Shown: in pieces, positions 55,371 through 64,000 of the stretch
Position numbering within the stretch: position 1 is the stretch's first letter
Layout: each line of letters begins with the position of its first letter
NCBI GenBank assembly: GCA_019456195.1
Contig: VRUK01000012.1
Location: forward strand, 1-64,000
Length of the DNA stretch: 64,000 nt
Reading direction: 5' to 3'
Source of the DNA: Planctomycetota bacterium
GTDB lineage: Bacteria; Planctomycetota; Phycisphaerae; Sedimentisphaerales; Anaerobacaceae
Notes under the pieces: model-generated
Databases searched by the model: none
The model's input: the letters and a program-made list of their open reading frames with translations, nothing else
What the model was told of the DNA's origin: nothing
Translations under genes and position numbers: made by a program

Positions 55371-55439
55371 ATCTAAGGTTAATAAGCTATGAAGATTAAA
55401 TAGCAGTCCAAAATATCAATGAGGAAGGGCTTGGTTAAT

Positions 55440-58400
55440 ATGCGCAGTTTGTTATCAATCTCAATACTTGCTTTGTTATTATTACTATTTTTAATTGGCT
55501 CTACGAATGCAGCCTATCTGCCCAATGATCTCGATAATGATACGATCAATATGGCTGATTTAATTTTGCAGGCTGACCAGTTGCAACAGACTGACGTCCC
55601 GCTGGTAATAAATGAGTTCGTAGCTTCCAACAACAGTTCCGCCCTGGATCCACAGGGACAATATGATGACTGGATTGAAATCTATAATTATGGATCTGAT
55701 CCTATTAATCTTGCTGATATGTATCTGACGGATAACCTCTCTGTTACTGATAAGTGGCGGATTCACAGTGATACTCGAGGAGCTACTATCATTCAGCCTG
55801 GTGGCTTTCTGGTGATATGGGCGGACAACGACACCGCCGACGAAGGGCTGCATGCCAATTTCAGGCTTAGTGCCGGTGGTGAGGAGATCGGCCTGTTCGA
55901 TACAGATGGAAGTACTCTGATTGACAGCGTTATCTTTCTCGACCAGACCACTGATATTTCCTACGGCCGCTATCCTGATGCTAATGATGTTTGGCGGTTC
56001 ATTGCTGATCCTACCCCGGGAGCGGAAAATGCCGGTGGATATTTGGGTTTTGTTGATGAACCTAAATTTAGCCATGAACACGGTTTTTATACCACGCCTT
56101 TCTCTGTTACACTTGCTACCGAAACCAAAGATGCCATAATATACTATACGCTCGATGGCAGTGAGCCGTATGATACTACTGGTGGTGGGCGGGCCCCGGG
56201 AGGGACGGTCTATACTGACCCTATTCTCATCACCACGACCACGAATCTGCGGGCCAAGGCAATTAAGCCGGGCTGGCAGCTATCAAATGTCAAGACAAAG
56301 GCTTATGTCTTTCTTGAACCGGATATCCAAAATTTTAGTTCTAACTTGCCCATAGCCGTCATTGATACATTCGGTAAAGGTGTAGGCCAATCGACCGAGA
56401 CTCAGACATTGAGTTTTGCCGAATTTATTGATATTCAGGACCGCGGCAGGGCCAGAATAACCAACACGCCGGATTTCATGGGTAAAACCGGGCTTAATAT
56501 TCGTGGCAAAAGTTCAGAAGGTTTTGCCAAAAAGCAGTACCACCTTGAAACTTTAGACGAAAATAATACGGATAAAGATGTTTCTATTCTTGGCTTTCCC
56601 GCCGAATCAGACTGGGTTCTCTCTGCTCCCTATTCGGACAAATCACTAATGCGTAATTTTCTGACCTATAAGTGGAGTAATGATTTGGGGCAATATGCAG
56701 TCCGCACACGGTATATCGAGTTGTTCCTGAACACCAACGGCGGTGGTGTTTCGATGGACGATTATGTGGGCGTGTACATACTGATGGAAAAAATTAAAGT
56801 GGGTAAAAATCGCGTTAATATTGCAAAACTTGAACCATCTGATAACGCTGAACCTGAAATAACCGGCGGGTACATTGTCAAGAAAGACAAACTCGACCCG
56901 GGCGATCTGACATTTAGTACCAGCAAGGGGCTGAGTCTAATACACCTGGAGCCAGAAAGAGCAGAAATTACACAAGAGCAGATGGACTGGATCAAGGGCT
57001 ATATAAATGAGTTCGAGGCAGCGCTGTACGGACCGAACTTTACTGACCCTGTCGATGGATATGCTAAATATATAGATGTCGATTCATTTATTAACATACA
57101 CATTCTTGTCGAACTTACTAAAAACATTGATGGCTTTCGCCTCAGTACCTATATGTTCAAAGACAGAGGCGGGAAGCTGAATATGGGCCCTGCATGGGAT
57201 TATAACTTATCACTCGGCAATGCCGATTATCTTGAGGGCTGGAAACCCACCGGTTGGTACTATGACCTGATAAGTGCTGGCGACTATCCCTGGTGGCGCC
57301 GCTTATTCCAGGATCCGGAATTTCAAATGCGTTACGCCGACAGGTGGTTTGTTCTGCGCCAAAATATGTTTGATACGGGTATGTTGCTTCAGGATATTGA
57401 TGATATCGTCGAGCTGCTCGGTGAAGCACAGGTCCGCAACTTTGATCGCTGGAATATTCTTGGTACTTATGTTTGGCCGAACTGGTTTATCGCTCGGACT
57501 TATCAGGAAGAAATCAACTGGATGAAAGGTTGGCTTGATGACCGGCTGACGTGGATGGATGCTCAAATCGCCACTGAATTTGCCACTGCTCCGCCACTTT
57601 TCAACCGGCAGGGGGGGCAGGTTGATCCGGGATTCAATCTTGCGATGTCTGCTTCGTTTGGCACTATTCATTACACTCTCGATGGTTCCGACCCGCGTCT
57701 GACAATAATCGAGCCGGGAGATAAAATCACTACCAGCCTTGTTGGCGAAAGTGACACTAAGCGTGCGTTTGTGCCGACTGACCCTATCAGCAACAACTGG
57801 AAAGGTGGCCAGCCCTTCGATGACTCAGCATGGCTGGTTAGCCTCGGAAGCCCGGGAGGCATCGGATATGAAAGGGGTTTAGGATATGAAAACCTCATCA
57901 GCCTTGATGTCGGAGGACTGATGGCCAGAAAAAATGCTACTTGTTATATCCGCATTCCGTTTACTTTTGACGGCAGTCCTGGCAACTATGATTTTATGAC
58001 GCTCAAAGTCCGCTATGACGATGGCTTTATCGCATACATCAATGGCATCGAAGTGGCCAGACGCAATTTTGCCGGCACTCCGGAATGGAATTCAAGCGCC
58101 GATGCCGGCCGCTCCGACTCTGAGGCCGTTAACTTCGAGAGCATAAACATCTCTGCTTTCCTCGAAGCGCTTCAACCTGATAATAATATTTTGGCCATCC
58201 AGGGTTTGAATTCATCCACTGTGGATTCTGATTTTCTAATCTCTGCCGAACTAATTGCCGAGGAAAACATTCCTTCTCAGGGCGGCGGTTCTTTGCCTAA
58301 TGTATTTCAATATAATGAGCCAATCACTCTGGACCACAGTACTCACGTCAAAGCCTGCATATTTAAAGGCGACACGTGGAGTTCGTTGAACGAGGCGATC

Positions 58401-59909
58401 TTTGCTATAGACCCATTAGCAGACAATCTGCGCATCACAGAGATTATGTATAATCCATACAATCCTAATGCCGAATACGTTGAGTTGAAAAACATTGGGG
58501 CCGAAACGATTAATTTGAATTTGACTAAATTCACAAACGGAATTGATTTTACCTTCCCGAATATCGAGCTTGCATCCAACGAATATGTAGTAGTTGTTCA
58601 GGACCGCCAGGCTTTCGAAACCAGATACGGCACAGCCTTAAATATAGCCGGCGAATACTCCGGCAGATTAAATGATGCAGGAGAGCGTATAGAACTGGAA
58701 GACGCTGTCGGCCAAACCATACTGGACTTTGACTACAAAGACGGCTGGCGATCTATTACAGATGGAGATGGTTTCTCTCTGACAGTAATTGACCCTGCCA
58801 ACACTGACCCTTATGACTGGAACGAGAAAGACTCATGGCGACCTAGTGCATATCTCAGCGGTTCACCTGGCGAAGATGACAGCGGTATTGTCCCCGAGCC
58901 GGGTGCGGTGGTTATTAATGAGATACTGGCCCATTCACACGCCGACGCGACGGACTGGATAGAGCTGCATAATACTACCGGAACTGCAATATATATTGGC
59001 GGCTGGTTCCTCAGCGACGGCAGCTCTGATCTTATGAAATATCAGATTGTCCCGGGGACAATAATTGCTCCGAATGGATATATTGTTTTCTACGAAGACC
59101 AGCATTTCGACAACATAGCTGCCCCGGGCTCTTATCAGACCTTTTCTTTGAGCGAGAACGGTGAACGGCTGTCCCTAAGCTCCGCCGAAGGCAGCCTTTT
59201 AACAGGCTATAGACAGGTCGAGGATTTCGGTGGTTCTGAGACCGGCGTATCTTTTGGCCGTTATTACAAGCCAAGTACCGGCAATTATAACTTTGTTCCG
59301 ATGTCGCAGAACACTCCGGGCTCAGCTAATGCCTATCCGAAGGTCGGCCCGATAGTCATCAACGAGATTATGTACAATCCATCTTGGCCCGTTGGCAGCT
59401 CATATACCAATGACCAGTATGAATATATAGAGTTGCATAACATCAGCAACGAACCTGTCTCTTTATATCATTTTGACACTGCTCAGCCGTGGAAGTTCAC
59501 CGATGGTATTGAATTTACCTTCCCGGCTGATATTCCTGTAGCGATACCTGCTGGCGGTTATCTATTGGTTGTCAAAGACCCGGAGGCGTTTGCTTGGCGG
59601 TACCCGGCTGTTCCTGTTGAGAAAATTCTTGGTCCTTATAGCGGTAGCTTAAGCAATGCTGGCGAGAGGCTCCAGCTTTCGATGCCCGGTGACGTGAACG
59701 ACTCCGGCAAGCTTTATGACATTCGCGTTGACAGAGTAAGTTACAGTGATGGTTCTCATCCTGAGAAATCTCCAGATAGAGTTGACCACTGGCCGACAGC
59801 CCCGAACGACGGCTTGGTATCTTTGTCCCGGGTGCCCTCGCAGAACTACGGCAACGACCCCGAAAACTGGACTGCCTCTGCACCTTCACCCGGAGCTGTC
59901 AATCCATAA
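55440..59909 (+). CDS. Giant secreted CotH kinase-like protein with lamin-tail domains
   Basis: A 1489-residue exported mosaic. A signal peptide (MRSLLSISILALLLLLFLIG) ends near NAAYLP. A dockerin-like EF-hand scrap, DLDNDTINMADLILQADQ, follows. A lamin-tail domain begins PLVINEFVASNNSS, then comes a chitobiase C-terminal-like domain with IIYYTLDGSEPYDT and NLRAKAIKPGW. The CotH domain covers about 310-690: FMGKTGLNIRGKSSEGFAKK, VYILMEKIKVGKNRVNIAKL and GPAWDYNLSLGNADYLEGWK, the last holding the Asp motif of the spore-coat kinase. A second YTLDGSDPR domain and three more lamin-tail domains (LRITEIMYNPYN, VVINEILAHSHAD, IVINEIMYNPSW) follow. The ATG at 55440 has AAGGG upstream. A protein kinase-like enzyme attached to the cell surface or matrix is the best guess. 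Confidence 0.85.
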   Translation: MRSLLSISILALLLLLFLIGSTNAAYLPNDLDNDTINMADLILQADQLQQTDVPLVINEFVASNNSSALDPQGQYDDWIEIYNYGSDPINLADMYLTDNLSVTDKWRIHSDTRGATIIQPGGFLVIWADNDTADEGLHANFRLSAGGEEIGLFDTDGSTLIDSVIFLDQTTDISYGRYPDANDVWRFIADPTPGAENAGGYLGFVDEPKFSHEHGFYTTPFSVTLATETKDAIIYYTLDGSEPYDTTGGGRAPGGTVYTDPILITTTTNLRAKAIKPGWQLSNVKTKAYVFLEPDIQNFSSNLPIAVIDTFGKGVGQSTETQTLSFAEFIDIQDRGRARITNTPDFMGKTGLNIRGKSSEGFAKKQYHLETLDENNTDKDVSILGFPAESDWVLSAPYSDKSLMRNFLTYKWSNDLGQYAVRTRYIELFLNTNGGGVSMDDYVGVYILMEKIKVGKNRVNIAKLEPSDNAEPEITGGYIVKKDKLDPGDLTFSTSKGLSLIHLEPERAEITQEQMDWIKGYINEFEAALYGPNFTDPVDGYAKYIDVDSFINIHILVELTKNIDGFRLSTYMFKDRGGKLNMGPAWDYNLSLGNADYLEGWKPTGWYYDLISAGDYPWWRRLFQDPEFQMRYADRWFVLRQNMFDTGMLLQDIDDIVELLGEAQVRNFDRWNILGTYVWPNWFIARTYQEEINWMKGWLDDRLTWMDAQIATEFATAPPLFNRQGGQVDPGFNLAMSASFGTIHYTLDGSDPRLTIIEPGDKITTSLVGESDTKRAFVPTDPISNNWKGGQPFDDSAWLVSLGSPGGIGYERGLGYENLISLDVGGLMARKNATCYIRIPFTFDGSPGNYDFMTLKVRYDDGFIAYINGIEVARRNFAGTPEWNSSADAGRSDSEAVNFESINISAFLEALQPDNNILAIQGLNSSTVDSDFLISAELIAEENIPSQGGGSLPNVFQYNEPITLDHSTHVKACIFKGDTWSSLNEAIFAIDPLADNLRITEIMYNPYNPNAEYVELKNIGAETINLNLTKFTNGIDFTFPNIELASNEYVVVVQDRQAFETRYGTALNIAGEYSGRLNDAGERIELEDAVGQTILDFDYKDGWRSITDGDGFSLTVIDPANTDPYDWNEKDSWRPSAYLSGSPGEDDSGIVPEPGAVVINEILAHSHADATDWIELHNTTGTAIYIGGWFLSDGSSDLMKYQIVPGTIIAPNGYIVFYEDQHFDNIAAPGSYQTFSLSENGERLSLSSAEGSLLTGYRQVEDFGGSETGVSFGRYYKPSTGNYNFVPMSQNTPGSANAYPKVGPIVINEIMYNPSWPVGSSYTNDQYEYIELHNISNEPVSLYHFDTAQPWKFTDGIEFTFPADIPVAIPAGGYLLVVKDPEAFAWRYPAVPVEKILGPYSGSLSNAGERLQLSMPGDVNDSGKLYDIRVDRVSYSDGSHPEKSPDRVDHWPTAPNDGLVSLSRVPSQNYGNDPENWTASAPSPGAVNP

Positions 59910-61691: not shown

Positions 61692-61720
61692 TTGACATAG
61701 CTGTTGATATTTTATATACT
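61692..61720 (+). promoter_or_regulatory. Strong sigma-70-type promoter
   Basis: A consensus TTGACA (61692-61697) and TATACT (61715-61720) are exactly 17 bases apart, the best promoter match found in the window. Transcription would start near 61727, nearly 285 bases before the GH92 gene. Confidence 0.65.
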
Positions 61721-61726
61721 TATTAT

Positions 61727-61859
61727 GTTGTAAGTGCAAGTAAAGTGGCTTACGCTGAAACGCATTGACCATTATAATAATGCACGAGAAGGCACTATGC
61801 AATATGGAGACTGGGTGAAGAAAAGCTGAACACTTATAGCCTTTGTCTCCTTCTTTTTT
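61727..61859 (+). ncRNA. Candidate small RNA or attenuating leader of about 130 nt
   Basis: Between the strong promoter and an intrinsic terminator lies a short non-coding segment with three possible helices. Helix 1 pairs GTAAG (61730-61734) with CTTAC (61749-61753). Helix 2 pairs GCATT (61762-61766) with AATGC (61779-61783). Helix 3 is the terminator at 61806-61850. No frame of useful length with a ribosome site is seen. It matches no riboswitch or small RNA family that I can recognise by eye. It could be a free-standing small RNA or a regulated leader for the GH92 gene. Confidence 0.45.
61806..61859 (+). terminator. Intrinsic terminator upstream of GH92
   Basis: GGAGAC (61806-61811) pairs with GTCTCC (61845-61850). 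An inner helix pairs AAAAGCT with AGCCTTT, with one A-C mismatch, around a 10-base loop. TTCTTTTTT follows directly. The asymmetric bulge of 9 bases on the left arm is unusual and might allow an alternative fold. Confidence 0.55.
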
Positions 61860-62010
61860 GCGCTTCTGAAAAATTTATCTTCAATCGCCCCATCTCCCTC
61901 GTTCTTTTCATCAGAACATTGATATTGTATTTTATCGACATTTGTGGTTAACTAACGCCATTACTGAAAGTATTTTCGGTACCACCCTAACGACTTGAAA
62001 GGAGAAACGC

Positions 62011-64000
62011 ATGTCCAGAACTTCTGCTTATTTTATATTTTTCACGTTAATGTTTTCACTGACAGCAGGGTGTTCATCCGGCGTTTTTGCAGTTGAAAAG
62101 AAACAGCCCGTCGATTGGGTGGATCCGATACTTGGGACAGTGAGTTCAAGGTGGATGCTTTATCCCGGCCCGAGTATGCCCTTTGGAATGGTAAAGCTAA
62201 GCCCTGACAATACAGAAAAATCTGGTTTAGATGCAGGATATGAATACACGATTGAGAGCATAGCGGGATTTGGCTGCGTTCATTCGTGGGGAATGGGCAG
62301 TTTTCTCACAACGCCGACTACCGGAGAACTCAAGGTAATACCCGGCCCTGAAGATGACCCCGACAAGGGATACAGATCGAGGTTCAGCCATAATAAGGAA
62401 ATTGCTTCCCCGGGATATTATGCTGTTACCCTTGAAGATTATAATATCAAAGCGGAACTGACCGCAACGACCCGGGTCGGTTTCCAGCGCTACACCTTTC
62501 CCAAAGCGAATAAAGCACATATTCTCTTTGACCTTCGAATACCCGAAGGACACCGTATTAAGGTTGTAAATGCCCGGGTAAGGAAAGTAAGTAATACCGA
62601 GATTGAAGGATATGCACAACGCAGTTCCAGTTGGAATGATTATACTCTTTATTTTGTTGCCAGGTTCAGCAGGCCATTCAAGTCCTTCGGCGGTTGGGTA
62701 GGCGAAAAGATTTACCGGAACATAGACGAAGTATCCGGTAAGGACAATATTGATATTGGGGCCTTCGTCAATTACTCAACTAATGAAGATGAAGTTATTA
62801 AGATTCAAACCGGCATTTCGCTTGTTAGTATTGAGCAGGCACGCTTAAATCTCGAAACTGAAATGTCGGGATTTGGCTGGGACTTTGAGGCGGTACGAAA
62901 TGATGCCCGAAACACCTGGAACGACCTGTTGAACAAAATTAAGATTGAAGGGGGCACTGAAACCGATAAAACCAAGTTCTATACCAACCTGTATCGTTCC
63001 TATTGTGCCAGGACAATCTGGAGTGATGTTAACGGAAAATACGTGGATATGTATGAGAATATCCAGCAACTAAAAGACCCAGACTCGCCCGTTTATGGTT
63101 GTGATGCCTTTTGGAATACGTTCTGGAACTTAAATCAGCTATGGGCGTTGATAACTCCGGAAACGGCAAATAAATGGGTAAAGTCACTGTTAGAGATATA
63201 TGACCGTGGTGGATGGCTGCCCAAAGGCCCCGGAGGCATCGAATATTCAAGTATAATGGTGGCATCTCACGAAATTTCGCTGATTGTAAGTGCATATCAG
63301 AAGGGGATTCGAAATTTTGATATTGAGAAGGCTTATAAAGCAATAAAACATAATCAGACCGAACCAGGCAGGCGCCATGAAGGCGGCGGCCATGTAGGAA
63401 ACCATCAGTTGAAACCCTATAAAGAACTTGGATATGTACCGGTTGAAAAAGGGCCGGTTTCAAATACTTTAGAGTATGCCTATGATGACTGGTGTGTAGC
63501 TCAGATGGCAAAGGCCCTCAATAGAAAAGACGATTATAAACACTTTATAGGAAGGGCTGAAAATTATAAAAACGTATTCGACCCGGTGGTAGGATTTACC
63601 CGGCCAAAGTGTGCCAATGGCTCATGGGTTAAAGGCTTCAATCCGTTGGTCAAGGCCGTAGGCAAAGAAGATGATTTCCAAACAAAAGATTTTGTTGAGG
63701 GCAATTCATGGCAATACACATGGTTTGTTCCCCACGATGTAAAAGGACTCGTCAACCTGCTCGGTAAGGAAAAATTCAACAGAAGGTTAGTGGATGGCTT
63801 TGAGGAGTCTCGTCCAAACTTTGTGAGCCACTACGTTAACCATAGCAACCAGCCTAATATGCAGGCCCCCTGGCTTTTCAATTATTCGAGTGCTCCCTGG
63901 CTGACCCAGAAGTGGGTGAGTCAGATAATGGAAAACTATTACGGTACTGGCCCTGTTAACGGCTACCCCGGTGATGAGGACCAGGGTCAAATGGGAGCCT
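62011..64000 (+). CDS. GH92 family alpha-mannosidase lipoprotein (runs off the window)
   Basis: The first 663 residues of a GH92 exo-mannosidase. The lipoprotein signal ends in the lipobox LTAGC with Cys21, so it should be anchored to a membrane. The N-terminal beta domain has VDWVDPILGTVSSRW, PGPSMPFGMVKLSPDN and AGFGCVHSWGMGSF. The (alpha/alpha)6 barrel follows with PVYGCDAFWNTFWNLNQLWA, EGNSWQYTWFVPHDVKGLVN and, at the window end, NGYPGDEDQGQMGA, the calcium- and catalysis-linked loop. Family members remove alpha-mannose from glycans. GGAGA precedes the ATG by six bases. About 80-100 C-terminal residues should lie beyond the window. Confidence 0.94.
   Translation, partial: MSRTSAYFIFFTLMFSLTAGCSSGVFAVEKKQPVDWVDPILGTVSSRWMLYPGPSMPFGMVKLSPDNTEKSGLDAGYEYTIESIAGFGCVHSWGMGSFLTTPTTGELKVIPGPEDDPDKGYRSRFSHNKEIASPGYYAVTLEDYNIKAELTATTRVGFQRYTFPKANKAHILFDLRIPEGHRIKVVNARVRKVSNTEIEGYAQRSSSWNDYTLYFVARFSRPFKSFGGWVGEKIYRNIDEVSGKDNIDIGAFVNYSTNEDEVIKIQTGISLVSIEQARLNLETEMSGFGWDFEAVRNDARNTWNDLLNKIKIEGGTETDKTKFYTNLYRSYCARTIWSDVNGKYVDMYENIQQLKDPDSPVYGCDAFWNTFWNLNQLWALITPETANKWVKSLLEIYDRGGWLPKGPGGIEYSSIMVASHEISLIVSAYQKGIRNFDIEKAYKAIKHNQTEPGRRHEGGGHVGNHQLKPYKELGYVPVEKGPVSNTLEYAYDDWCVAQMAKALNRKDDYKHFIGRAENYKNVFDPVVGFTRPKCANGSWVKGFNPLVKAVGKEDDFQTKDFVEGNSWQYTWFVPHDVKGLVNLLGKEKFNRRLVDGFEESRPNFVSHYVNHSNQPNMQAPWLFNYSSAPWLTQKWVSQIMENYYGTGPVNGYPGDEDQGQMGA

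Follow-up and report, generated by a model that had tools for sequence, protein, structure and literature searches.

A predicted stand-alone small RNA family found mainly in one order of the planctomycete class Phycisphaerae

We describe a conserved small RNA gene in the window (the whole 64,000-nucleotide stretch of planctomycete DNA analyzed) that, judging from comparison of its homologues, almost certainly stands alone, with its own promoter and its own terminator. It represents a predicted small RNA family whose members come mostly from a single planctomycete order of the class Phycisphaerae. The family is new; its kind, bacterial small RNA, is already known. Very few regulatory RNAs have been described for planctomycetes, and a review puts the number of annotated sRNAs in the PVC group as a whole at 8 (PMC9029176). 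Within one order, two families carry the RNA in the majority of their genomes, often in multiple copies, and neither Hfq nor ProQ was detected in this lineage. It offers a concrete RNA for asking how small RNAs work without the classical chaperones, and its covariance model is ready for a new Rfam entry.

Promoter, predicted transcript, and terminator in the window

The features of the locus are collected in Table 1. The 5′ end of the small RNA was placed at or beside G61727 from the promoter spacing, and the 3′ end was placed in the U-run from the terminator. The original prediction had named this promoter as the best in the window. The promoter is present, with a score of 11/12, but it is not the unique top scorer, as eight other sites in the window equal it (nine in all). 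The bulged intrinsic terminator that had been described downstream is also there, as a GGAGAC/GTCTCC hairpin followed by a U-run, and the two further helices placed between promoter and terminator correspond to the closing helix (P1a and P1b) and the inner hairpin hp2. The upper stem of the terminator carries one mismatch in the window copy and its apical loop is large; the hairpin was missed by a strict terminator scan because this loop exceeds the scan's size limit.

Table 1. Predicted features of the small RNA locus (positions in the window)
Feature	Position	Strand	Remarks
Sigma-70-type promoter TTGACA-17-TATACT	61692..61720	+	11/12 consensus match
Small RNA, ~133 nt	61727..61859	+	R1/R2/R3 covariance-model matches at 61726-61862
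Closing helix P1a, 5′ arm GUUGUA	61727..61732	+	Pairs with 61798-61803
Closing helix P1b, 5′ arm GUGC	61734..61737	+	Pairs with 61792-61795
Hairpin hp2, GCAUUG ... UAAUGC	61762..61783	+	6/6 pairs with both-sided changes, 82% of cells paired
3′ arms of P1b (GCAC) and P1a (UGCAAU), separated by internal loop UA	61792..61803	+	
Intrinsic terminator hairpin: base GGAGAC/GUCUCC, upper stem GGUGA/UAGCC, apical loop AGAAAAGCUGAACACUUA	61806..61850	+	
Terminator U-run TTCTTTTTT	61851..61859	+	Read from sequence; U conserved across family

The minimum-energy fold of 61727-61859 comprises the closing helix, the inner hairpin, and the terminator hairpin. Nearly all consensus pairs reach a predicted probability of 0.8-0.99 in the window copy, with values of 0.83-0.94 for P1a and 0.99 for the terminator base. 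The folding energy of the single sequence did not stand out from shuffled sequences (z -0.5 and -0.6; z -0.62 for 61727-61859). As these z-scores are ordinary, stability alone cannot separate the RNA from chance, and the evidence that goes beyond chance is comparative.

Two other observations were made in these genomes. Some intrinsic terminators of the order, those of the small RNA among them, have ATGCG(C) directly after the U-run (L226-L229, L203, L211, L215, L222, and L225). Outside the small RNA, TATGCG comes after 3.3% of the U-runs that belong to a hairpin and after 0.06% of the rest; in the window's own genome, all four sites of TTTTTTATGCGC (L226-L229) lie behind a strong hairpin, compared with none for the reversed pattern. 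Separately, window positions 55419-59909 (+) encode a large protein of 1496 aa that combines one CotH kinase domain and one chitobiase C-terminal-type domain with four lamin-tail domains.

Distribution, covariation, and novelty of the family

Searching by blastn with 191 bases recovered the whole element and its promoter in three genomes of the same genus, at 83-87% identity, and diverged versions in more distant relatives. Aligned by strand, these homologues had the closing helix and terminator in common, with changes on both sides. We built a covariance model, R1, from nine sequences and refined it to R2 and R3. R1 gave matches in 66 of the 89 genomes of the family, with up to six per genome and E values mostly from 1e-8 to 1e-36. 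With the refined models, the small RNA was found in 105/161 genomes of the order, amounting to approximately 130 well-supported copies. Copy number ranged from one to six per genome and was often two to six, while in the second family of the order nearly all genomes were positive, usually with one copy each.

A scan of 392 genomes across the phylum yielded only two matches outside the order (L130 and L131), both weak and promoterless; the model is therefore specific. One strong match with a promoter, L201, lies in another order of the same class. L130 and L131 were rejected, as were the weak R3 matches L203-L225, since all of them lacked a good, correctly placed promoter and they had a terminator at most. 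A strict DNA pattern matched 23 records in the named genome collection, 21 of which are planctomycete MAGs labeled Phycisphaerae, Phycisphaerales, Sedimentisphaerales (an order of Phycisphaerae), or Planctomycetota only. The remaining two records are proteobacterial and were taken as chance. We also looked for carriage by phages, and the exact pattern had no match in viral contigs.

The helices proposed from the single sequence could then be compared across copies, and covarying homologues were indeed found. Among 90 matches, 91.5% of pair cells were standard, and 162 cells had changed on both sides; shuffled alignments had 40 such cells and slid structures no more than 43. In a set of 91 copies dereplicated below 87% identity, 89.3% of pair cells were standard, 26 of 27 pairs had compensatory change on both sides, and both-sided cells numbered 217, compared with 58 ± 6.6 in shuffled alignments and no more than 65 in slid structures; as pairs were counted on alignments that had been fitted to the structure of the model, all these figures lean towards it. 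This bias was checked against the independent promoter signal, an unfitted alignment of nine sequences, and the slid controls. By helix, the 91 copies had both-sided changes in 6/6 pairs of P1a (96.7% of cells paired), in 3/4 pairs of P1b (97.9%), and in 6/6 pairs of the terminator base (98.1%). The upper stem of the terminator was paired in only 69.8% of cells.

The resulting family architecture consists of a closing helix (GUUGCG/CGCAAC plus GUGC/GCAC), a first hairpin, a second hairpin, a one-base linker, and the terminator. Read by eye, the first hairpin is short and variable in sequence, for example GGCG-GUUU-CGCC or GAGAUC-AGUG-GGUCUC. Some copies are without the second hairpin, hp2, which is missing from some shorter homologues, or without the inner part of the closing helix. 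Conservation among unpaired positions falls in the loop of the terminator and in that of the second hairpin, which is AUCCGCGGU in many homologues. The apical loop of the terminator is of a GGGUGAYGAAAAG type in the window copy and of a GGCCYACAAY type in sister copies, and the two types occur together in the same genomes (G003, G005, G001, G040, and G058, for example). Internal open reading frames of at least 20 aa (maximum 41) in 37/130 copies might suggest a short coding gene or a dual-function RNA. We consider this exceedingly improbable, given that the longest frame has a median of 15 aa, that insertions and deletions in the hairpins shift the frame among copies, and that constraint tracks the base pairs.

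Rfam 15 covariance models gave nothing above gathering threshold in the window and no match on the small RNA in 19 homologous loci, in keeping with the earlier statement that no known family was recognized in it. At E ≤ 10, the search gave two sub-threshold matches, lysM-TM7 (E 5) and ST7-OT3_1 (E 9.3), which are both on the other strand and were put down to chance. A search of openly accessible published papers found no description of the RNA.

Independence from neighboring genes

We then asked how the RNA relates to its surroundings. A promoter scoring at least 9/12 stands at the expected distance in 123 of 130 copies (94.6%), compared with 2.0% of control windows, and in 103/130 copies the -10 box ends 6 nt before model position 1. 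The upstream 45 bases are outside the covariance model, and the promoter signal is thus independent of it. At the other end, the U-run is conserved and the paired terminator base indicates that the RNA would end in an intrinsic terminator across the family. Neighboring genes, which were called by a simple longest-ORF rule so that single cases may be wrong, had no fixed orientation: the nearest downstream gene was on the same strand in 65 copies and on the opposite strand in 56, and counts for the nearest upstream gene were 69 and 57. The identity of the neighbors varies from copy to copy, and those that recur are confined to close relatives. By eye, these resemble RibD, LigA, Gfo/Idh-type oxidoreductases, a sulfatase, and DUF1080-type proteins; as they have nothing in common, a conserved neighbor or operon was rejected.

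The original prediction left open whether the stretch held a small RNA or a ligand-responsive leader controlling the mannosidase gene approximately 150 bases on. The gene itself is as described: it starts at 62011 on the same strand, 151 bases after the U-run, and Pfam identifies it as GH92 (PF07971 and PF17678). A cis-acting attenuator or riboswitch of this gene, for which the position of the window terminator before a same-strand start codon speaks, is nevertheless very improbable. GH92 follows only the window copy, 1 of 130, and at the orthologous locus of the same-genus genomes G003, G001, and G005, the place downstream is taken by an unrelated, convergent gene. Across the family, downstream orientation is random, with no consistent same-strand gene or pathway. 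Furthermore, the terminator stem and the closing helix do not overlap, and no alternative antiterminator is therefore apparent. With orientation random, neighbors varying, and orthologous loci free of GH92, comparison of the loci excludes an attenuator for the family and makes one very unlikely at the window copy. Of the two earlier options, it is thus the undescribed small RNA that stands, with no Rfam match and as part of a covarying family with its own promoter, and the leader that falls. The same observations make the gene a stand-alone one rather than an attenuator.

Candidate modes of action and comparison with known RNAs

Profile searches of 26 relatives found Hfq (PF17209) in none and ProQ (PF04352) in none, while control genomes were matched in both cases. 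CsrA was present in 22/26. Proteins other than Hfq and ProQ may thus carry post-transcriptional regulation in this lineage. From the comparison of copies, a strong promoter would start the RNA at the closing helix, this helix encloses one or two hairpins, and the RNA would end at its own intrinsic terminator. With both ends in or beside helices, the RNA could be expected to remain stable with no chaperone to protect it, in line with Hfq and ProQ being absent. It would act in trans, most probably through base pairing between mRNAs and its conserved unpaired loops. The candidate pairing loops are the apical loop of the terminator and the hairpin loop, and paralogues of one genome that differ in these loops would address different targets; both the pairing and the targets are inferred. 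We hold it evenly balanced whether chaperone-independent base pairing in trans is the mode of action.

The conservation of the loops is equally compatible with protein binding. On the main alternative reading, the RNA could be a structured, 6S-like platform in which closing helix, junction, and terminator hairpin titrate or modulate a protein, as suggested by the conserved loops, by the unpaired junction positions A13 and G91 of A6 (conserved at 0.85 and 0.96), by the lack of a detected Hfq or ProQ, and by a closed architecture whose hairpins vary in length. We regard this as possible but rather doubtful: loop types differ between paralogues of one genome, a pattern more readily explained by different targets than by a single shared protein, and the RNA is not 6S itself, which is separately present in 33/41 relatives. 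We would only tentatively entertain the broader proposal, on a similar footing, that the family is a new class of RNA, protein-binding or regulatory, acting as a main post-transcriptional regulator in an order without Hfq and ProQ, with loop-diversified paralogues within one genome.

A sponge sequestering CsrA, of the CsrB/RsmZ kind, would suit a lineage in which most relatives carry CsrA, and many copies have ACARGGA straddling the boundary between the closing helix and the terminator stem. However, 117/130 copies have at most two GGA motifs, the sole constant one lies inside the terminator stem and not in a hairpin loop, and no Csr/Rsm family matches the RNA. With GGA too few and misplaced, we rejected this reading as improbable. 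Separately, just upstream of one small RNA copy, L062:1313-1443 (-) gave a sub-threshold PrrB_RsmZ match (26.6 bits, gathering 44, E 0.038); this may reflect either a CsrA-binding RNA that has diverged or a chance match.

Since Hfq and ProQ were not found, GGA is unsuitable, 6S RNA is separate, and the loops are conserved yet diversified among paralogues, we favor a loop-pairing RNA acting in trans. Overall, a stand-alone, trans-acting small RNA of an unnamed family, pairing through its loops, is the explanation towards which we lean by a little.

Among known systems, trans-acting, Hfq-dependent sRNAs of enterobacteria end in an intrinsic terminator. The present RNA resembles them in its own sigma-70 promoter, its length class of about 100-150 nt, its intrinsic terminator, its intergenic position unlinked to any one neighbor, and its paralogues within a genome. 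It differs in occurring in relatives without detected Hfq or ProQ (26 searched), in a 5′ end locked in a closing helix around a junction, and in having no Rfam match. The CsrB/RsmZ-type sponges (RF00166 and relatives) are likewise stand-alone, terminator-ended RNAs of CsrA-carrying genomes, whereas the present RNA usually has one or two GGA only, with the constant one in a stem, and matches no Rfam family. 6S RNA, which binds RNA polymerase, was rejected as an identity: RF00013 has no match in the window, and a separate 6S gene lies elsewhere in the same genome (G000:C100:48392-48576, 55.3 bits, above cut-off). 6S RNA is also stand-alone, structured, and widespread in these genomes. However, it forms one long helix with a central bubble, whereas the present RNA is shorter and combines a junction with a terminator hairpin.
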